Positions 4,410-35,057 of a DNA stretch of 35,265 bases are shown in pieces; the first letter of the stretch is position 1; every line of letters begins with the position of its first letter. The notes under the pieces were generated by a model, which worked only from the letters and a program-made list of their open reading frames with translations, had not been told where the DNA came from and made no database searches. Origin of the DNA: an uncultured Bacteroidota bacterium (lineage in GTDB: Bacteria; Bacteroidota; Bacteroidia; Chitinophagales; Saprospiraceae); assembly GCA_937861115.1 (NCBI GenBank), contig CALMBD010000038.1, forward strand, positions 1 to 35,265, written 5' to 3'. The translations under genes were made by a program, and so were the position numbers.

Positions 4410-5324
4410 TCACTTTTTCAATATCCGTTGCAACTGCCTGGCCGTTTTAAACCCGCATTTTGAGGCGATGTACTCGATGGTATATTCGGGGTTGTTCAGC
4501 ATCGTACTGGCATATTCCCTACGCAACATGGTCAGGTATTCCAGAACGGTAGAACCGGTCTTTTCCTTAAAAACCCTGCTCAGGTTTCTCGGGCTCATGC
4601 CCACATGAGCGGCAAGCGATTCAATACTGTTTTCCTTTGAAAGGTTGTCTATCATGTAATCCTGTACTTCGTGGACCTGCGGGTTGATATGATTCCTGTA
4701 GTCGAGGTAAACACTTTGCTGTTTGTGTCTTCCACTTCTTCGGTGGTACACGACAAGTCCCCGCGCCACCTTGTGCGTGAAAAGCGCCCCTTTCAGGCTC
4801 TCCAGGACGGCGAGCGCCAAATCGATACCGGCGCTGATGCCGGCACTGGTGTAAACATTGTTGCTTTTCACATACAGGATATCCTCAACCACCCTCGCCT
4901 CCGGAAATTGTTGTTGCAGCTCATGCACCCTGCGCCAGTGCGTGGTGCATTCTGTATTTGTCAGCAAACCGGCATGGCCCAGGGCGAATGCCCCGTTGCA
5001 TATCGAGCAGACGGTGATGTGGTTGTCCGAGCATTCTTTCAGCCAGTCAAAAAATGCCCTTTCCGCCTTAAAGGAGATACTCCTGACGTATTCGCAGTCC
5101 ATGCCGGGCACAAAGACATAATCGCCTTCCTTCAATTTTGCCTCTTTAAAACTTGCCAGTTTCCCGAATCCAAGACCCGCGGTGCTGACCGGGGTTTCCT
5201 GAAATTGATAAAACTCAAGTTCCGTCTCGAAACCATAAAATATGGCTTCGGTGAATACCTGTACAGGGCCCGCCAAATCGAGCAGTTCAACGGTAGGCGG
5301 TATGATAAAGGCCATTTTTCTCAT
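4410..5324 (-). CDS. GlxA-type regulator: DJ-1/PfpI domain plus AraC helix-turn-helix
   Basis: Encodes 304 residues from the ATG at 5324; an upstream in-frame ATG at 5375 would add 17 residues of no recognisable character. Residues about 1-185 form a DJ-1/PfpI (class I glutamine-amidotransferase-like) fold. Cys109 lies in the nucleophile-elbow motif VCSICNGAFALGHAG, followed by the TTHW motif with His129. Residues about 210-304 carry an AraC-type DNA-binding domain with both helix-turn-helix units (SLAAHVGMSPRNLSRVFKE and IEYIASKCGFKTARQLQ). In the GlxA/FtrA/CdhR family the DJ-1 part is a ligand sensor rather than an enzyme. The gene converges on the metallo-beta-lactamase and is transcribed away from the exported-protein gene at 5457. 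Its regulon is unknown. Direct GGACAA repeats at 7014-7040 are one conceivable AraC-type site in the window. Confidence 0.92.
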   Translation of the reverse strand: MRKMAFIIPPTVELLDLAGPVQVFTEAIFYGFETELEFYQFQETPVSTAGLGFGKLASFKEAKLKEGDYVFVPGMDCEYVRSISFKAERAFFDWLKECSDNHITVCSICNGAFALGHAGLLTNTECTTHWRRVHELQQQFPEARVVEDILYVKSNNVYTSAGISAGIDLALAVLESLKGALFTHKVARGLVVYHRRSGRHKQQSVYLDYRNHINPQVHEVQDYMIDNLSKENSIESLAAHVGMSPRNLSRVFKEKTGSTVLEYLTMLRREYASTMLNNPEYTIEYIASKCGFKTARQLQRILKK

Positions 5325-5456
5325 GCTGTTTGAATTATTGCCGCGCATCGGCGCCGTATAAAAGGGTTGCTGCAAACTAAATGATATTCCGACGGATGTG
5401 AATTATCAGGAGACACTGAAGGACACATGCCAACCTCTTCAGCGTCTCGCTGACCA

Positions 5457-6071
5457 TCAGATTATTTTTATACCGATTCCAAACTCCAGTGCAATATTAT
5501 CCATATTTCCGTCCAAATATTGAACATCAGAACCTTTAACAGGCCAGGGGTATAGCGGCACATACACTCGCCAGGTGAAGAAATATTTTTTCCATCCCCG
5601 CTTCATGCTATACATCATGCCATAGTCGGGACTGAAAGCGGTGATGGTAGCACTCACCTTGTCAAAACGCTCGTCATCCAGCGTTTCCTTGTAGGTGGTG
5701 TACTTGACGCCAACCATCAATAAAAACGTATGCGAGTGTTTTTTTGAATAAAACGTCGTGCCGACACCGATTTTCTGGTTGATCGAATAATTGTAACTCG
5801 TTTTTATATGATTAAAATACCGCTGGGTTACATTGTTGATATTAAAGGAAGTATGTGCCGCAAGGCTAAGGTGCCTGCGCGGGTTCCATTGTATCAGATT
5901 CGTAACAAGGAGGTCCGTACCGAAATTTGTATGAATCCCGATGGCCGGTTCCACAGTTAATAGTCGCGCCTTTGAAGGCTCGTTTATCTCTACTGTAGTG
6001 CCTTTTTGAGCCACCCCGCAGGCGCCGGGCAAAAGAAAAACCAGGAGGAAAAAATATTTCAGAAAGTTCAT
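5457..6071 (-). CDS. Exported beta-rich protein, likely outer-membrane barrel
   Basis: A 204-residue protein with a clear Sec signal (about 1-21, cleaved after GVAQ or nearby). The mature part is built of short amphipathic strands with alternating aromatic and polar residues (for example HLSLAAHTSFNIN, KIGVGTTFYSKK, TFLLMVGVKYTTY). It ends in a strand rich in Ile and Gly. This pattern fits a small 8-stranded outer-membrane beta barrel of the kind common in Bacteroidota. I do not recognise a named family. It follows the esterase gene by 42 bases on the same strand, so the two are probably co-transcribed from upstream of 6938. Function unknown. Confidence 0.8.
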   Translation of the reverse strand: MNFLKYFFLLVFLLPGACGVAQKGTTVEINEPSKARLLTVEPAIGIHTNFGTDLLVTNLIQWNPRRHLSLAAHTSFNINNVTQRYFNHIKTSYNYSINQKIGVGTTFYSKKHSHTFLLMVGVKYTTYKETLDDERFDKVSATITAFSPDYGMMYSMKRGWKKYFFTWRVYVPLYPWPVKGSDVQYLDGNMDNIALEFGIGIKII

Positions 6072-6113
6072 GATTTGTATTTTAAAGATTTTTGAAAAGT
6101 GTGGACATCAGGG

Positions 6114-6938
6114 TTACCTGTTTTGAAAATAGTAGTTCAGTCCTTTGATCATGTTCGGATGTTCCGAGCCGCGGTGTCCCAGGTCTTCCTCTGTATTTTT
6201 CTCCAGTTTGATCTGTGTGTAGTTGTCGCGAAGCAATTGGTAAAACGCCTCAAAAGGCGCCTGCATCCTGCCGGCATTTTCGGCCCCGCCTATTCCCATG
6301 AATACCAGTTGGGCCCTGTCTTTATTTTCGGCCCGGTTGTCCTTTTCAAACTGGAGCGACACCAGGTCGTCAAACCACAGCGACGGGCTGAGCAAAATGT
6401 AGTTGCCGAACAATTTATTGCCGGTACAAAAAGCGTAGGCCCCAAACAGGCCTCCATAGGAATGGCCTAGAATAACGCGGCTGCTGCGAGCCGTATCCAC
6501 GGCAAGGTTCTCCTCCATCTCCGGAATCAACTGTTTTTCAATAAAATTCAGGAATTCCGGGCCGCCGCCGGTTACGGAACTGACTTTTGTCGGGGTGTAA
6601 TCGATGCTCCGGTCCTTTCCGTAGCCGATACTTATCACCACGGCGTTCGCCACGGCAAGTCGGTCCGAAATTTCCCGGCACTTGTTGGATACAAAATCGA
6701 AATTTTCCTCCCCATCCAGAACATAGATGGAGGCGTACTTTTCAACTCCGGGATTGTAATTCGAAGGCAGTCCCACCTTGATGTTGTACGTTGCGCCGTT
6801 GGCGGTTGACTGAAGCACAAATTCACGCGTCAGCGCAGGGTCGAATGCCTCCTTGTTGCAGGAACTGAACAGGAAAACAAGCATCAGGGCACTCGCGAGC
6901 AAAGGCATTGCTTTAAACATTACTGCATGGTATTTCAT
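6114..6938 (-). CDS. Lipoprotein alpha/beta-hydrolase, esterase D/Fes-like family
   Basis: Encodes 274 residues. The N-terminus carries a lipoprotein signal with the lipobox FSSC (Cys27). The rest has the fold signature of the putative esterase family (Fes/IroE/YbbA-like): an early beta-sandwich-like strand region, the strand IYVLDGEENF near 71-80, and the nucleophile motif GHSYGG with Ser160. The likely catalytic His260 follows in GSEHPN near the C-terminus. This family cleaves carboxyl esters such as siderophore trilactones or acetylated substrates. Here the enzyme would sit on the periplasmic or outer-membrane face as a lipoprotein. It is the first gene of a probable two-gene unit with the barrel protein at 5457-6071. 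A promoter-like CACCTTTG lies on the minus strand at 6984-6991. The substrate is unknown. Confidence 0.87.
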   Translation of the reverse strand: MKYHAVMFKAMPLLASALMLVFLFSSCNKEAFDPALTREFVLQSTANGATYNIKVGLPSNYNPGVEKYASIYVLDGEENFDFVSNKCREISDRLAVANAVVISIGYGKDRSIDYTPTKVSSVTGGGPEFLNFIEKQLIPEMEENLAVDTARSSRVILGHSYGGLFGAYAFCTGNKLFGNYILLSPSLWFDDLVSLQFEKDNRAENKDRAQLVFMGIGGAENAGRMQAPFEAFYQLLRDNYTQIKLEKNTEEDLGHRGSEHPNMIKGLNYYFQNR

Positions 6939-7251
6939 ACTTATTTTAATTTGAAATGGTTTAGTTTGTCACCATTGACGATGCAAAGGTGAGGCCTGCA
7001 AAAGCGCATAAAAGGACAAGTACAGGTCAGAAACGGACAACTTGTCTTCCGGCGCCTTGCGGGACATATCGGTACACGCTTCTGGATTTGTAAGCAGTGT
7101 TCCCAATACGTCCAAAATCATTTTTATATATTTGGGATATGTAAGGGCCCTGGATCAGAGGCGATCCGGCCTGTGCGGCGCGGTGTGGGGAGTGGCCGTA
7201 CCGGAAGGATCAGGAATCAAGCAATTTTATATTGCGATAAACTTGTTAGCC
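6939..7251. promoter_or_regulatory. Divergent control region between esterase and cupin genes
   Basis: These 313 bases hold no convincing gene. An open frame in phase with the cupin extends back to 7042, but it lacks cupin-like or signal-like sequence and overlaps promoter-like DNA. On the minus strand CACCTTTG (6984-6991) resembles the Bacteroidota -7 box for the esterase. On the plus strand TATATTTG (7127-7134) is a full match for the cupin. Two direct copies of GGACAA start at 7014 and 7035, exactly 21 bases apart, a spacing typical of AraC-family half-sites. GACAAGT and ACTTGTC (7015-7021 and 7039-7045) also form a 7-bp inverted pair. Confidence 0.45.
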
Positions 7252-7794
7252 ATGTCAGTTAAAACGCTCAAAATCAACAAAAACGGAGAGATTCTCATCA
7301 TCACAACGTCAGGCTCGGAAAACGGCGGCGCGATGACTGAATTTGAAGGAAAAGACGAACCGGGCATAGGCCCGCCTATGCATATTCACTTTTTGCAGGA
7401 GGAGAAGATAAAAGTGCTGAAAGGAAGCATGAGGGTAAAGTCCGATTCGGAAGAATTCAGCATGAAAGCCGGTGATGAACGCATATTTGCAGCCGGGGTG
7501 GCGCATCAATTCTGGAACGACGGGAAGGAACAAAATCATTATGCCGGCTACCTGAAACCTTCGTACAACTGGGAGTACATCATTGAGCGCGTTTATGACT
7601 CCGCAAATGCCTCCAACGATATCAAACCTGCCCCTTTTGACGCCGCATTTCTGTTGACCAGGTACAAGTCCGAGATTGATTTACTGGTGATACCCAAACC
7701 TGTAAAAATGTTTGTCTTTCCGGTTCTGTACCTGCTCGGAATGTTACTGGGCAAGTTTAATAAATATAAAGGCGCCCCTGCGCCGTTCAGGTAA
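7252..7794 (+). CDS. Cupin-domain protein with C-terminal membrane segment
   Basis: A 180-residue protein from the ATG at 7252. The frame is open further upstream to 7042, but the cupin fold begins right at MSVKTLKI and the upstream stretch contains a promoter-like box. Residues about 10-110 form one cupin barrel: the PPMHIHFLQEEKIKVLKGSM block supplies two His and a Glu of motif 1, and AGVAHQFWND supplies the His of motif 2, so a metal site is likely. After the cupin a region with a hydrophobic helix (about 145-165, PVKMFVFPVLYLLGMLLG) may anchor the protein in the membrane, which is uncommon for cupins. It is followed 38 bases later by the DinB-like gene. No specific reaction can be assigned. 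Confidence 0.85.
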   Translation: MSVKTLKINKNGEILIITTSGSENGGAMTEFEGKDEPGIGPPMHIHFLQEEKIKVLKGSMRVKSDSEEFSMKAGDERIFAAGVAHQFWNDGKEQNHYAGYLKPSYNWEYIIERVYDSANASNDIKPAPFDAAFLLTRYKSEIDLLVIPKPVKMFVFPVLYLLGMLLGKFNKYKGAPAPFR

Positions 7795-7832
7795 TCTTTA
7801 GTGTCTTCTGCAACAATCTGAACAACCACAAT

Positions 7833-8357
7833 ATGCTCCTTGCCGACTTTAATAAAACACTCGATATATGGATGGAAGCACTCCCGCATTACGACATTGA
7901 ATCGCTGCGGATGAAGCCGACCCCTTCGGACTGGTCGATGGGCCAACTTTATATGCATATATTAAACGAGACAACCTGGTATTTTGAGCAAATCGGGTTA
8001 TGTTTTTCCCAACCCGAACATGCGGACGAGGAAATGCTGGAAAGCGCAAAAACGATGTTTCATAACAATTCGTTTCCAGACGAAATCATAAAAGGGGATC
8101 CCTTGCTTTCGGAAAACGTAAAACAGCCTGAAGACATTCAGTCTTTACTGTACGCATTTCAACAACTCAAGGCAAACGCGACTGATATTTGGGCAAAAAT
8201 TAAGACGTCGGAAATTTACGGAAAATCCCGACATCCCGGATTTCAGTTTTTAGATCCCGGGGAATGGTTTCAGTTTGCTGAAATGCATATGCGGCACCAC
8301 CTGAAACAAAAAAGCAGAATCGATGCCTTTCTGGGTAGTCAACCTAGCCCATATTGA
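7833..8357 (+). CDS. DinB-like four-helix metalloprotein
   Basis: A 174-residue, almost entirely helical protein. The family pattern of DinB/DfsB-like proteins is visible: an N-terminal helix ending in the W-S-M-G-Q-L-Y-M-H block with His42, and a late helix with EMHMRHHLKQ (His152 and His155/His156). These give the three-His metal site of the family. The length is typical (150-180). Characterised relatives are thiol-S-transferases that use bacillithiol or mycothiol, but many members are unassigned. It lies 38 bases after the cupin on the same strand, and the two could share a transcript. It is unrelated to DNA polymerase IV, which is also called DinB. Confidence 0.85.
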   Translation: MLLADFNKTLDIWMEALPHYDIESLRMKPTPSDWSMGQLYMHILNETTWYFEQIGLCFSQPEHADEEMLESAKTMFHNNSFPDEIIKGDPLLSENVKQPEDIQSLLYAFQQLKANATDIWAKIKTSEIYGKSRHPGFQFLDPGEWFQFAEMHMRHHLKQKSRIDAFLGSQPSPY

Positions 8358-8444
8358 GCGGGTGGAGACCCTGCCGGATCTTCTGTCGGGCAAGATCAAA
8401 TAAGGCAAGTTGGAAATATCCGGGAAAATCCCCTCCCAAAGCCG

Positions 8445-8452
8445 TACCTTTG
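8445..8452 (+). promoter_or_regulatory. Promoter -7 box (TACCTTTG) for ABC-F gene
   Basis: TACCTTTG is an exact match to the Bacteroidota -7 consensus TAnnTTTG and lies 31 bases before the ABC-F start codon. No convincing -33 element at the normal spacing was found. Confidence 0.55.
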
Positions 8453-8483
8453 CGGCCGTTTTCAAAATCATATATCCACTTCG

Positions 8484-10121
8484 ATGCTATCAGTGAACAA
8501 TTTGGCCGTGCAGTTCGGCAAGCGTGTATTATTTGATGAGGTCAACCTTAAATTTGTAAAGGGCAATTGTTACGGTGTCATCGGCGCCAACGGCGCCGGC
8601 AAATCGACTTTCCTGAAAATCCTGTCCGGCGAGATCGACAGTACCCAGGGCTCTATCGAGATAACGCCCGGCGAGCGGATGGCCGTGCTCAGCCAGAACC
8701 ACTTTGCTTTCGACGACTATCCGGTGATGGATACGGTGATCATGGGCCATCGGCGGCTCTACGACATCATGCAGGAGAAAAACGCCATCTACGACAACCC
8801 CAACGCGACCGAAGCGGAATCCATGCGCGCTGCCGAACTCGAAAGCGAGTTTGGTGAAATGAACGGCTGGATGGCAGAAACCGACGCATCCGAACTGCTG
8901 AGCAACCTGGGCGTCCGGGAATCCCTGCACTACAAACTGGTAAAGGAACTCGACGGTTCCGACCGCGTGAAGGTGCTGCTCGCGCAGGCGCTGTTCGGCG
9001 CGCCCGATATCCTGCTCATGGACGAGCCGACCAACGACCTGGATGCGGAAACGGCAGACTGGCTTTGCAATTTCCTGGCGGATTATCAGAACATCGTCAT
9101 CGTGGTCTCCCACGACCGGCATTTCCTGGATATGGTTTGCACCCATGTGGTCGACGTCGACTTCGGCAAAATCCGGATGTTCACCGGCAACTATACCTTC
9201 TGGTACGAGTCCAGCCAACTCCTGGCGCGCCAGATGGCCGATAAAAACAAAAAAGTGGAGCAAAAGCGGCAGGAAATGATGGACTTCATCGCCCGCTTCT
9301 CGGCCAACGCCTCCAAATCGAAACAAGCGACCAGCCGGAAAAAGGCACTGGAAAAACTAAACCTGGAAGAACTGCGGGTCTCCAACCGGCGCTATCCCTA
9401 CATCGTGTTCAAGCCCGAACGCGAGCCGGGAGATGTTATACTTGACATCGAAAACCTGTCGAAAAAGGATGTAAGTGGCGAGTACCTGTTCAGAAAACTG
9501 TACCTGCGGTTCAACAAGGGTGAAAAAATCGCCGTGCTCAGCCGCAATGCGCTCGCCGTTACTGCCTTGTTGAACATCCTGTCCGGAGAAGACACCGATT
9601 TTGAAGGCGGGTTCCAGTACGGCCAGACCATATCGACACAGTACCTGCCGAACGACAACAGCGCCTATTTCTCGGGCGATCAGGATATGAGCCTGATGGA
9701 CTGGCTGCGGCAGTATTCAAAAGAAAAAGACGAAGGCTTTATCCGCGGGTTCCTGGGCCGGATGTTGTTCGCCGGCGAAGAGGTGTTCAAGCGCTCGGGG
9801 GTATTGTCCGGCGGTGAAAAAGTGCGCTGCATGATGTCCAAGATCATGCTCGCCAATCCGAATTTCCTGATCCTCGACGAGCCGACCAACCACCTCGACC
9901 TGGAATCCATCACTGCGCTGAACAACGGCATGCGGGACTTTACCGGGAATATGATCTTCACCTCCCATGACTACCAGATCCTGGACTCCGTGGCCAACCG
10001 CATTATCGAGATCACGCCGAACGGCCTGATCGACCAGCACATGTCGTACAGCGAGTACCTGCACAGCGACAAGGTCCATCAGATGCGCGAGCAAATGTAT
10101 GGCGAGGCGGTAATGGCATAA
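8484..10121 (+). CDS. ABC-F family ATPase (YbiT/EttA-like) with degenerate second P-loop
   Basis: A 545-residue soluble protein of two ABC ATPase modules with no membrane part. NBD1 has an intact Walker A (GANGAGKST, Lys40), the signature position reads LDGSDRVKVLLAQAL instead of LSGGE, Walker B is ILLMDEPTNDLD and the switch is VVSHDRHFLD. A charged linker (about 250-300) matches the P-site tRNA-interaction motif region. NBD2 has a canonical signature LSGGEKVRCMMSKIML, Walker B FLILDEPTNHLD and switch FTSHDYQILD, but its Walker A position reads LSRNALAVTALL, so the P-loop Gly and Lys are gone (Val359 replaces Lys). ABC-F proteins bind the ribosomal E site and relieve stalling or protect against antibiotics. 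Loss of one P-loop suggests asymmetric nucleotide use. Whether this is family-wide among Bacteroidota relatives cannot be judged here. It has its own promoter box and stands apart from the DinB gene. Confidence 0.93.
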   Translation: MLSVNNLAVQFGKRVLFDEVNLKFVKGNCYGVIGANGAGKSTFLKILSGEIDSTQGSIEITPGERMAVLSQNHFAFDDYPVMDTVIMGHRRLYDIMQEKNAIYDNPNATEAESMRAAELESEFGEMNGWMAETDASELLSNLGVRESLHYKLVKELDGSDRVKVLLAQALFGAPDILLMDEPTNDLDAETADWLCNFLADYQNIVIVVSHDRHFLDMVCTHVVDVDFGKIRMFTGNYTFWYESSQLLARQMADKNKKVEQKRQEMMDFIARFSANASKSKQATSRKKALEKLNLEELRVSNRRYPYIVFKPEREPGDVILDIENLSKKDVSGEYLFRKLYLRFNKGEKIAVLSRNALAVTALLNILSGEDTDFEGGFQYGQTISTQYLPNDNSAYFSGDQDMSLMDWLRQYSKEKDEGFIRGFLGRMLFAGEEVFKRSGVLSGGEKVRCMMSKIMLANPNFLILDEPTNHLDLESITALNNGMRDFTGNMIFTSHDYQILDSVANRIIEITPNGLIDQHMSYSEYLHSDKVHQMREQMYGEAVMA

Positions 10122-31125: not shown

Positions 31126-31189
31126 TATTCCCGAAAACGAAAAAGTAAAAGACGCATTGCGGGTTTTTGCTTTTTCGTTTTCGGGAATA
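31126..31189. repeat. Perfect 20-bp inverted repeat before the nuclease-like gene
   Basis: TATTCCCGAAAACGAAAAAG (31126-31145) and its exact reverse complement (31170-31189) flank 24 bases. The repeat lies 80 bases before the start of the 1262-residue gene. It lacks a T run right after the stem, so it is less clearly a terminator than the one at 30996. It could be a recombination or protein-binding site, or a leader structure. Confidence 0.75.
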
Positions 31190-31268: not shown

Positions 31269-34200
31269 ATGAAACTCGTGACTAGAGATAATCTTGAAAG
31301 ATGGGCAGGCACTACCTTTTCAAAAGCTGCTCTACCTTATCTTATTTCAAGATTGGTAAGAGCAACTACACCTGCAAGTACCAAGGCAAATCTTCCTTCG
31401 GGTAGTGCAACCTACATAGGAGGTTGGGATGGAATTGTGAATTGCGAATCTGAAACAGCTTATGTTCCTAAAGGCACTTCTTTGTGGGAATTTGGTACAG
31501 ACGTAAATCCTAAAGTAAAAGCAGACAAAGAATATGACAAAAGAAAAAACAAACCATTAGGGTTTATTCCCAAGGATTCCATATTCGTCTTTGTCACACC
31601 GAGACTTTGGACAAAAAAAGTTGATTGGCTTGCTGAGAAAAAGGCTGAAAATCATTGGAGAGATGTTATTGTTTATGATTCAGTAGACTTAGAACAATGG
31701 CTTGATATTTCATTGCCTGTTTCAAAATGGTTCGCAGAAGAACCAGGTGTTAATGGGATTCCATTTGACGGTGTTTTAACATCAGATGAGTTTTGGAATG
31801 AATGGTCAACTGGCCCAATAAAATTAGAACCTGAAGTAGTTACTTCTGGAAGGGAATTTGAACAACAGTTATTGTTTGACATTCTTCAGGGGCAAGCATG
31901 TATCAAAGCAGTTAAGGCTTCAACCAAAGATGAAGCTACCGCATTTATTATTGCAACTGCTAAATTGTTTTCTTCTAACGAGTCAGAAATATTTTTCGCT
32001 AAATCATTAATCTCAGACAACAGTAATTGTTTCCGAACAATAAGATACAACACAAATTATCCTCTAAATTTAATTCCCAGGTTTAATGACGCAAGTCAAT
32101 TTTACTCAGCAACAGGAGAGAAACATCATGTACTTGTTCCACTTGGGGCTGACGATGATTTTAATCAAGACACTATCAACTTGCCAACAATCGACAGAGA
32201 CAGTCAAATTAATTCTTTAATAAAAAGTGGATTATCAAAAGAAGATGCTGAGAAATTCTCAAGAGAGTCTGGACGAAATATTACGATACTTAAAAAGCTT
32301 TTAAAATTCCCTTATTTCAAAGCAAAATGGATGGAGAAAGAAAACATTCGTGAGATAATTCCTGCCCTTATACTTGGAAGATGGAATGAAACATTTGTTG
32401 GAGATATTGAACTAATTGAAAATCTTTCTGAACAAAAATATTCTGATTATTTAGTTATCCTAAACAAATGGAAAAACTTTGAAGAATCGCCCATTATCCA
32501 AATAGGTGAAACTTGGAGGTTAACCTCACCTCTGGATTTATGGACAGCTCTTTCATCTCAACTTTCATCTAAAGACTTTCAGAACATTCAAGAGTGTTAT
32601 GCATTAGCATTCAAAAATGGGAATCCGATACTCGAACCTGCGGACAAAAACAGTTTCGCAGCTTACTTCAACAAAAAAAACAAATACTCTAATTGGTCAA
32701 GAGAAGGACTAACTCAATCTTTAATATTAGTAGGACGATTAAATGGAGTTAAAATCCCCAATCTTGACAATCCCCAAAATTGGGTTGATAATATCATTCT
32801 TGATTTACTAAATAATGCAAGAGGAGAAATGTGGATTTCCGTTGACCACGAATTACCACTTATTTCGGAAGCATCGCCAGAAAGTTTTCTCAAAGCAGTA
32901 AAAAATTCATTGGCAAAAGAGCAACCCGAAATAATGGATATGTTTAAAGAGGAAGATGGTTTTTTACACAAAACAAGTCACCACACTGGTTTGTTGTGGG
33001 CACTTGAAAACTTAGCCTGGTTGCCCGAATATTTAAGGGAGGCGAGTTTGATACTGCTTAAACTTTCAAGACTTGACCCTGGCGGTAGTTTATCAAACAG
33101 ACCAATGAATAGTATTTCAGAAATTTTCAAACCTTGGCATTATCAAACTCTCGCATCGTATGATGAAAGAATGGAAATTCTCAAATATATTACCGAAAAG
33201 GAAAAAGAGTCAGGTTGGTCTCTTTTAATAAGAATGCTTCCTGACCATCACGGAATAGCACATCCAACGCATAAAATGCGTTGGCGAATGTTTGATAAGA
33301 ATACCAATCTCCCTTACACTTATCAAGAAATATGGAATACGCATTCAGCAGTAATAGAAATGCTTATAAACCTTTTTAATAATGATGAAGAAAAATTTTC
33401 TCAACTCATAAAAGAAACAACCAATCTTTCTCCTAAAGACAGAAAAAGAGTTTTAGATTGGGCTAATGAAGTTTACCCAAATATCAAACAGGAAAAATTT
33501 ACAACTTGGGAAGCAATCAGGGGAATTTTAAATCATCACAGGTCGCATCCTGATACCGATTGGGCTTTACCCGAATCCGAGTTAGTACAGTTAGAAAATT
33601 TGTATAACAAACTTCAACCAACAGACATTATCCACAAATACATTTGGCTTTTCAATGAACATTGGCCTGAGTTTCCAGAAGGTTTCAAATACGAACCCAA
33701 TGAATCAGAAAAACGATACGATCAACAACAAAAGCGTATTGATGAAGCAAGAAAAACAGCAGTATCAGTTTTTCTTCAAGAATTAGGTTTAAACGCAACC
33801 TTAGAATTACGAAAACAAGTTAAAGAGTTTTGGCTTTTGGGCGGTGCTTTAGCTGGTGTAATCACAAATAAGGAAGATGTTATTACAGTTTGTGAATGTT
33901 TGTATGATGATAAAAACCTTATTAGTTTTGCTCACAACTTTATCTATCGTAAGTCAATTATTGAAAACTTTGATTGGATAAAATCATTATTCAATGAATT
34001 ACAAGAAAAGAAATATAGCAACAAAGCACTTTCTAATGTTCTAATTCCACTAAATCAAAATCAAAAATTGTGGAATTTTGTAGCTTCATTAGATGAAGAA
34101 ATTCAAAATGAATATTGGCAAAATATCAATCCGCATTTTTATCACATCACCGATGAAGAAAAGGCCATTGGAATTGAAATGCTTTTGAAATACAAAAGAT

Positions 34201-35057
34201 TCTTTTCTGCAATAGATATTGCTTCGCATTTCGCAAATGTAATTTCAAGTAATCTGCTTTCAGAAATGTTGAAAAAAGCAGCGACAGAGGAGGCAAATGA
34301 AACGCCACGTTTCAGAGGTTATGAAATTGAACGAGTTTTCGAAGAACTTGACAAGCGAACAGATATTGAGAAATCGACTCTCATTCATTTGGAGTGGCTT
34401 TATCTTCCAATTTTAGATTCATACGGAACAAGAAGAAACCCAAAGACTTTGGAAGAAGAATTGTCAAATAACCCTGAATTTTTTATTGAGGTTTTAAAAT
34501 GGATTTACATTCCAAAAGACAAAACATTATTGGAGAAAGAAAGAGAAGGTATTTCAGATGAAGCTATTCAAAATAGGGCAAAACAAGCCTACCATTTGCT
34601 TCATTCGTGGAAAAAAATACCGGGAATGAAAGAAGATAATTCTATAGATGAAAGAGTATTAAAAGATTGGATTTTAAAAGCGAGAACCTTAGCTGAATCA
34701 GTGAGCAGATTAAATGTTGCTGATTCAGAAATCGGGAAAGTATTAGCTGAATACCCTGAAAACATTCAAGAATGGCCACAAGAAAAAATATTTCAAATTA
34801 TTGAAGAAATAAACACTGACAGTTTGAAGAGCGGTTATTCTTCTGCGATGTTTAACAAAAGAGGATCTTCAACAAGAGGTGCTTTTGATGGTGGAGATAT
34901 TGAAAGAGGAAAAGCCGCCTACTTTGAGAAATTATCAAATGATTTTAAGAATAAATACCCAAATGTTGCGGAGATATTTAAACGAATGCAGCAAGGTTAT
35001 TTAGCAGATGCAAAACGAATGGATGAAGAAGCAGAAAGAAACAGGCTGGAATATTGA
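31269..35057 (+). CDS. Large multidomain protein: PD-(D/E)XK-like nuclease, STAND-like middle region, helical C-terminus
   Basis: A 1262-residue protein, AT-rich unlike the surrounding chromosome, which suggests transfer. Residues about 1-160 look like a PD-(D/E)XK nuclease fold: GGWDGIV with Asp54, SLWEFGT with Glu74, and Lys82/Lys84 in NPKVKADKEYDKR, where the active-site Lys may have moved to the next helix. It ends in LEQWLDISLPVSKWFAEE. Residues about 190-470 resemble the core of a signalling NTPase: GREFEQQLLFDIL, a strand then ACIKAVKASTKDEATAF, the strand LNLIPRFND, HHVLVPLG, a lid-like GLSKEDAEKFSRESGRNITILKKLL, and a winged-helix-like part ending IGETWRLTSPLDLW. I see no Walker A (GxxxxGKS/T). 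Residues 500-1262 are helical, perhaps repeats, ending in a charged RGKAAYFEKLSNDF...QGYLADAKRMDEEAE tail. From memory this matches an uncharacterised protein family; a defence role is inferred, not shown. No signal peptide or membrane segment is seen. Confidence 0.85.
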   Translation: MKLVTRDNLERWAGTTFSKAALPYLISRLVRATTPASTKANLPSGSATYIGGWDGIVNCESETAYVPKGTSLWEFGTDVNPKVKADKEYDKRKNKPLGFIPKDSIFVFVTPRLWTKKVDWLAEKKAENHWRDVIVYDSVDLEQWLDISLPVSKWFAEEPGVNGIPFDGVLTSDEFWNEWSTGPIKLEPEVVTSGREFEQQLLFDILQGQACIKAVKASTKDEATAFIIATAKLFSSNESEIFFAKSLISDNSNCFRTIRYNTNYPLNLIPRFNDASQFYSATGEKHHVLVPLGADDDFNQDTINLPTIDRDSQINSLIKSGLSKEDAEKFSRESGRNITILKKLLKFPYFKAKWMEKENIREIIPALILGRWNETFVGDIELIENLSEQKYSDYLVILNKWKNFEESPIIQIGETWRLTSPLDLWTALSSQLSSKDFQNIQECYALAFKNGNPILEPADKNSFAAYFNKKNKYSNWSREGLTQSLILVGRLNGVKIPNLDNPQNWVDNIILDLLNNARGEMWISVDHELPLISEASPESFLKAVKNSLAKEQPEIMDMFKEEDGFLHKTSHHTGLLWALENLAWLPEYLREASLILLKLSRLDPGGSLSNRPMNSISEIFKPWHYQTLASYDERMEILKYITEKEKESGWSLLIRMLPDHHGIAHPTHKMRWRMFDKNTNLPYTYQEIWNTHSAVIEMLINLFNNDEEKFSQLIKETTNLSPKDRKRVLDWANEVYPNIKQEKFTTWEAIRGILNHHRSHPDTDWALPESELVQLENLYNKLQPTDIIHKYIWLFNEHWPEFPEGFKYEPNESEKRYDQQQKRIDEARKTAVSVFLQELGLNATLELRKQVKEFWLLGGALAGVITNKEDVITVCECLYDDKNLISFAHNFIYRKSIIENFDWIKSLFNELQEKKYSNKALSNVLIPLNQNQKLWNFVASLDEEIQNEYWQNINPHFYHITDEEKAIGIEMLLKYKRFFSAIDIASHFANVISSNLLSEMLKKAATEEANETPRFRGYEIERVFEELDKRTDIEKSTLIHLEWLYLPILDSYGTRRNPKTLEEELSNNPEFFIEVLKWIYIPKDKTLLEKEREGISDEAIQNRAKQAYHLLHSWKKIPGMKEDNSIDERVLKDWILKARTLAESVSRLNVADSEIGKVLAEYPENIQEWPQEKIFQIIEEINTDSLKSGYSSAMFNKRGSSTRGAFDGGDIERGKAAYFEKLSNDFKNKYPNVAEIFKRMQQGYLADAKRMDEEAERNRLEY

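Follow-up and report, generated by a model that had tools for sequence, protein, structure and literature searches.

The window analyzed here, i.e., the whole 35,265-base stretch of DNA, is the complete contig C38 of the 5.7-Mb assembly of an uncultured Saprospiraceae bacterium, and it carries close to its right end a gene for a protein of 1262 residues. In this protein a PD-(D/E)XK nuclease-like domain is followed by a middle domain of predicted AAA/STAND-like fold that has no P-loop and by a long helical solenoid. The protein is probably a mobile single-gene receptor-nuclease of the Avs/PD-λ-4 kind, directed against phages or other mobile elements, whose P-loop has been lost. An initial annotation, made from the letters of the window, had proposed a stand-alone defence or conflict protein, and the fold, the relatives and the genomic context support this proposal.

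Domain layout and the missing P-loop

AlphaFold2 models with predicted local distance difference test (pLDDT) values of 93 and 91 showed a PD-(D/E)XK nuclease, an AAA/STAND-like domain, a winged-helix-like segment and a helical solenoid, which matched the three-part layout of the initial annotation. The open reading frame (ORF) is intact, with an ATG start and no internal stop codons, and its parts are as follows.

31269..35057, + strand: whole gene, 1262 amino acids, ATG start, uninterrupted ORF; nuclease, P-loop-less STAND-like domain and helical solenoid
31269..31748, + strand: residues 1-160, PD-(D/E)XK nuclease-like domain (AlphaFold2 model, FokI/MspJI matches, conservation)
31428-31430, 31488-31490, 31494-31496 and 31518-31520, + strand: codons of D54, E74, G76 and K84, respectively
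31764..32303, + strand: residues 166-345, AAA/STAND-like alpha/beta domain with lid helices and no Walker A motif (AlphaFold2, Foldseek matches)
31902..31964, + strand: residues 212-232, expected P-loop site with strand 212-216, turn 217-219 and helix 220-232 (DSSP of the model, alignment)
32322..32528, + strand: residues 352-420, winged-helix-like, helices and then two short strands (DSSP)
32529..35054, + strand: residues 421-1262, all-helical superhelical solenoid, proposed sensor (AlphaFold2 model)

Bacterial, animal and plant immunity of the STAND/NLR type is commonly pictured as a switch between ATP and ADP. Conservation was counted in an alignment of 98 rows, from which L039, L050, L077 and L087 were excluded (broken frames or ORFs shorter than 900 amino acids); L006 is the same locus as L068. 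Leaving aside nine rows with a QxK-type N-terminus or no effector, the HD-type L079 and L049, which lacks the N-terminus, 87 window-type sequences with an N-terminus were available, or 88 when L049 was included. The Walker A motif GxxxxGK[ST] was found in none of the 88 window-type sequences over residues 185-345; the pattern [AG]xxxxGK[ST] is present elsewhere in the chain in six proteins. Our reading of the fold places the site where a P-loop would sit at residues 212-232, where strand and helix are joined in the model by a turn of only three residues, and window-type relatives usually have a sequence resembling VxASTKDEAxAFI in this region. The 'NTPase-like middle' of the initial annotation therefore held for the predicted fold but not for the P-loop. 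The motif is kept in the distant relative L137 (GEAGVGKT) and in the gene adjoining the family member at L022 (GASGLGKS, together with TLLIVDEC). For Avs5, an excerpt of PMC12931631 reports that immunity was abolished when Gly362 or Lys363 of Walker A was changed. The missing Walker A motif of the window family argues against ordinary ATP use. For a specialist the surprising feature would be this P-loop-less STAND-like body plan, predicted for all 88 window-type relatives examined.

In Avs4, a nuclease of the PD-(D/E)XK type at the N-terminus is followed by a central STAND domain and by a C-terminal sensor made of helices. Avs4, Avs5 and Apaf-1 were the top Foldseek matches of the N-terminal part, and residues 1-560 gave Avs4 (AVAST type 4; PDB 8dgf) as the best match with an E value of 1.8e-6 and low TM-scores. 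Unlike Avs4, the window family has no Walker A motif (0/88), and the solenoid model matched generic HEAT-type proteins best, and these only weakly. For the middle domain, structural matches were ClpA, RFC, CED-4, Apaf-1 and Avs4; Apaf-1 and CED-4 are eukaryotic STAND switches that bind nucleotide, from which the window protein differs by its nuclease-like N-terminal domain. The AAA-like alpha/beta fold, lid and winged helix that characterize STAND proteins are all present in the predicted model, the winged helix at residues 352-420 being our reading of the DSSP string. Residues 1-150 and 1-160 share the PD-(D/E)XK fold with the cleavage domains of FokI and MspJI, respectively, so that the predicted N-terminal domain has the restriction-endonuclease fold of this superfamily; it differs from both enzymes in using the helix lysine K84 instead of an ExK lysine and in having no known recognition domain. 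Nuclease effectors are described for Avs1-4 in an excerpt of PMC12931631.

Searches of Pfam, PADLOC, NCBIfam and PDB sequences with the 1262-residue protein gave no match at E ≤ 1. Profiles of the N-terminal part gave nine PDB sequence matches with E values of 0.1-1.2, which we took for chance, and the C-terminal profile matched no PDB sequence. Weak matches of N-terminal parts to DruF2 and to a type II restriction endonuclease were seen in one of 72 sequences each (E ~0.005). No Avs-named model was among the PADLOC matches of the family members, the library presumably containing Avs models. The model matched by the largest number of full-length members, though weakly, was PD-Lambda-4_A (PADLOC PDLC03991; E ≤ 0.1 in 7 of 15, with 5.4e-5 as the best value), a P-loop STAND protein of a reported anti-phage system; this model matched neither the window protein at E ≤ 1 nor any of 72 N-terminal parts at 0.01 and found no match in phage records. 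Table 1 of PMC10952713 lists PD-λ-4 with a P-loop NTPase and credits it to Vassallo et al. 2022, for whom the abstract of PMC9519451 reports 21 systems from an experimental phage-defence selection; the name PD-λ-4 was absent from the searchable text of PMC9519451, the attribution coming from PMC10952713 only. With hhalign, the profile of the C-terminal part aligned to L137 over 380 columns (probability 77, E = 2e-5, 17% identity), and L137 itself matched PD-Lambda-4_A at 3e-19. The Walker A motif is kept in the PD-Lambda-4_A relatives (L137 and the gene downstream at L022) and absent from the window family. The latter is best seen as a P-loop-less distant relative of PD-λ-4 and not as a member.

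Nuclease site and exchanged N-termini

The initial annotation had named Asp54, Glu74 and Lys82 or Lys84 as a PD-(D/E)XK-like triad. D54 and E74 were conserved in 87 of 87 sequences and K84 in 81, whereas K82 occurred in only 50. K84 sits in the helix that follows the strand of E74 and not at the canonical ExK position, so that the conserved D and (D/E)xK signature is present with a relocated lysine. Six sequences are devoid of K84: four (L047, L054, L072 and L100) carry K76, which gives the textbook E-x-K and is found in no other sequence, and two of the 87 (L038 and L067) have neither lysine. In a tree of the C-terminal parts L100 stood apart from L047, L054 and L072, and L069, which has G76 and K84, fell among these three. 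Judged by conservation, the triad is D54, E74 and K84 in the window protein; a lysine that shifts its place while the triad stays complete is the pattern that would be expected of an active PD-(D/E)XK site. DNA is the likely substrate of the N-terminal domain, and its cleavage would be metal-dependent.

The constant C-terminal module begins at about residue 351-352, and alternative N-termini join near this position. In the QxK type, found at ten loci (L002, L012, L014, L107-L111, L114 and L128, with L108, L109, L110 and L114 99-100% identical), the module follows a 280-residue N-terminus with the nuclease-like motif NPFSTGGGG...GFDTDD...GQxKH. This N-terminus resembled Cap4/DUF4297 at first sight; a profile of six of the ten QxK loci matched no Cap4 chain, and the label was therefore kept at 'QxK nuclease-like'. 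At L079 the module is fused to an HD-CE domain (PF24391, E = 2e-9), and at L113 it has almost no N-terminus. A helix-turn-helix (HTH) of the XRE or HigA type is fused ahead of the window-type N-terminus in two clades of 10 and 7 members and at L105. The QxK, HD-CE and N-less types were nested among window-type members in a midpoint-rooted FastTree of the C-terminal parts (local supports 0.84-1.0, with some deep nodes weak at 0.07-0.35).

Two further observations concern short ORFs beside family genes. At L113 (~9850-10050) the preceding short ORF ends in NHSGTGDNIGRD, which is echoed by HSGAGHNIARD at the N-terminus of the member; the common motif is HSGxGxNIxRD. Short nuclease plus pseudo-STAND genes without a solenoid and with D, E and K in place were found at L067 (7829-8911), L099 (7667-8878) and L008 (upstream of 1486). 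They belong to two separate branches and stand directly upstream of the full-length gene, their 3' ends being no more than about 40 bases away from its start.

Relatives, mobility and gene neighbourhoods

The gene had been called an orphan, which proved wrong: a pattern scan of GTDB genomes gave 420 stretches, of which 407 were confirmed as relatives, and results on these stretches refer to the best 80 of the 407. Record titles among them include Bacteroidetes, Ignavibacteria, Pseudomonas, Bradyrhizobium, Paenibacillus, Actinobacteria, Acidobacteria, Planctomycetes, Verrucomicrobia and a Methanosaeta metagenome-assembled genome (MAG). An assembly artefact was ruled out, since other named genomes carry C-terminal parts with identities of up to 93%. 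Within the genus, one of 36 other genomes had a relative, which is of the QxK type, and this ruled out a fixed housekeeping gene. In the phylum sample 15 of 395 genomes matched, including the source genome and the marginal G282 (E = 6e-4). Searches with the C-terminal alignment found 12 of 398, 7 of 299 and 2 of 296 genomes in the phyla of the Bradyrhizobium, Aneurinibacillus and Actinobacteria loci, respectively, each count including the centre genome and two of the matches (G570/L129 and G978/L137) being distant kin. Relatives were present on 8 viral contigs and 22 plasmids, 11 of them typed conjugative, and phage records contained one partial match to the gene. The QxK type occurred in 8 of 5426 Escherichia coli genomes; in the two cases examined the gene has the tail-fibre end of a prophage or prophage remnant on one side and host genes (together with an IS1 in one case) on the other. 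The relatives are thus scattered sporadically over chromosomes, plasmids and viral contigs. The family was unnamed among the titles and abstract openings listed from the open PMC literature, six protein accessions were not found in this literature, and at least two of its papers name PD-λ-4; subscription papers lie mostly outside it, and novelty in print is not claimed.

For 13 relatives at 65-86% DNA identity (L027-L029, L031-L038, L042 and L044), from Chryseobacterium, Paludibacter, Cyclobacteriaceae, an Ignavibacteria MAG and others, the blastn alignment began no more than 7 bases from the start codon and stopped no more than 8 bases from the stop codon. In the Dyadobacter relative (L030) similarity extended about 70 bases beyond the gene on each side; in L040 and L043 the alignment began within the gene, and three further relatives (L039, L041 and L050) are truncated. 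Because DNA similarity is bounded by the start and stop codons in the 13 relatives, the exchanged unit looks like a single gene, a point weakened by the fact that blastn alignments may end early in diverged flanks.

A search for defence genes around homologues had been suggested in the initial annotation, and many neighbours are indeed such genes (AbiE, Fic and restriction-modification). At a threshold of 1e-10, PADLOC model matches numbered 323 for 136 nearest neighbours at 75 loci versus 11 for 131 control ORFs; these are not protein counts, as one protein may match dozens of models. The neighbours were the nearest ORFs of at least 120 amino acids on each side, where present, at 75 of the best 80 loci (L039, L077 and three >90% identical loci were dropped). 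The control comprised all ORFs of at least 120 amino acids in 20 eight-kb stretches, with coordinates picked by us, from eight relative-bearing genomes that mostly differ from those of the 75 test loci. Pfam families among the 136 neighbours included AbiEi_4 (5), N6_Mtase (3), Eco57I (3), Fic (3), Methylase_S (2) and SIR2_2 (2), besides housekeeping families with one member each. A PADLOC-called AbiEi gene lies immediately upstream in a six-locus cluster of the XRE type, with an AbiEii-like gene, named by eye, in five. Eight neighbours chosen by hand, mostly for size and not at random, gave matches to PD-Lambda-4_A (twice), TmtA, a type IIG restriction-modification enzyme, E1-E2/JAB, DrmMI, PDC-S02 and an OLD/GajA-like protein. 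The two PD-Lambda-4_A genes adjoin the P-loop-less gene on the same strand, downstream at L022 on a Rhizobium plasmid (11847-15689, 8.1e-66) and upstream at L062 in a Saprospiraceae MAG (4895-8704, 8.7e-253).

Annotated plasmid regions were chosen by hand (six of the 22 matched plasmids plus three more; two records are unannotated). On a Thalassospira plasmid, Abi, SIR2, RES/Xre and AbiEii genes surround the relative, and on a Rhizobium tropici plasmid, reverse transcriptase, SLATT and Shedu genes lie 3-6 kb from it. The Shewanella and Arthrobacter plasmid regions contained toxin-antitoxin or partition genes and no clear defence system. L022, L048 and L073 have similar upstream gene pairs in three unrelated hosts, annotated at L022 as Mu-transposase C-terminal and TniB.

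Possible mechanism, alternatives and the source locus

In the receptor-nuclease that we favour, the solenoid (residues 421-1262) would probably sense a signal from the invader. Once bound, this signal would rearrange the winged-helix-like segment and the STAND-like middle so that several copies assemble and bring their N-terminal PD-(D/E)XK domains (D54, E74, K84, metal-dependent) together; DNA would then be cut and the invader stopped or the cell killed. As the P-loop is lost, unlike in Avs, the switch should run without ATP or with a P-loop partner in trans, ligand-driven assembly without ATP being the simplest reading. On a wider scale we tentatively suggest, at somewhat less than an even chance, a widespread bacterial immune-receptor family (more than 400 loci in many phyla) that retains the STAND/NLR body plan and has given up nucleotide binding entirely. 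The STAND remnant would serve as a nucleotide-free assembly hinge, and killing domains (relocated-lysine PD-(D/E)XK plus pseudo-STAND, QxK nuclease-like, HD-CE) would be swapped on one conserved solenoid sensor. A large mobile P-loop-less family with this plan would suggest that nucleotide-free signalling is possible and would allow a direct test of the role of ATP. The effector swap on one sensor, the K76/K84 variants and the two loci paired with PD-λ-4 are natural ready-made tests, and a defence family would be added that the PADLOC 2023 models did not recognize in the window protein.

Among the alternatives, restriction of a type IV-like kind, in which foreign or modified DNA is sensed directly by the solenoid or an HTH and cut, neither a protein trigger nor cell death being involved, is unlikely but the strongest. 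Rather improbable is a role as one half of a receptor pair, by analogy with paired NLRs, in which nucleotide switching would fall to a PD-λ-4_A-type protein. The same-strand PD-Lambda-4_A genes next to the family gene at L022 and L062 and the short companion genes at L067, L099 and L008 would suit such a pair. However, in a blastp search with the L022 neighbour as the single query, 2 of 94 loci had such a gene, its own included, although many loci have short flanks and distant copies could escape, and DNA similarity is limited to one gene in the 13 relatives. Genome G000 has no PD-Lambda-4_A match, which shows no absence, as the search was silent in all 14 control genomes. We give hardly any weight to an addiction or plasmid- or prophage-maintenance protein, i.e., a nuclease toxin restrained by its own HTH or middle and retaining its element: HigA/XRE-type HTH fusions, carriage on plasmids and prophages, and nearby plasmid genes (of ParA/ParB type, a few kb away at most, on two Shewanella plasmids, and ParB on that of Arthrobacter) are in its favour, but the window form and most aligned relatives have no fused HTH, simple addiction needs no 900-residue conserved solenoid, and defence models are frequent among the neighbours.

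At the source locus the gene is AT-rich, as had been noted, with 34.6% G+C versus 52.7% across window positions 1-31268, and in 1-kb windows the G+C fraction drops from 0.51-0.60 upstream to 0.33-0.40 inside the gene. This strong contrast is not general, since the gene was AT-richer than its flanks at 53 of 81 loci, with a mean difference of 2.7 points. The stop codon lies 208 bases from the contig end, so that the neighbourhood is legible on the left side only. At most the last ~130 bases of the contig (window 35134-35265) were found again, with 91-96% identity, at the very beginning of three other contigs of this genome (C188, C58 and C230); a multicopy element seems to have its edge about 77 bases past the stop codon, and this element may be the cause of the assembly break. 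About 80 bases upstream of the start codon lies a 25-nt inverted repeat (window 31126-31189, 96% complementary, 14-nt loop), which is perhaps a terminator.

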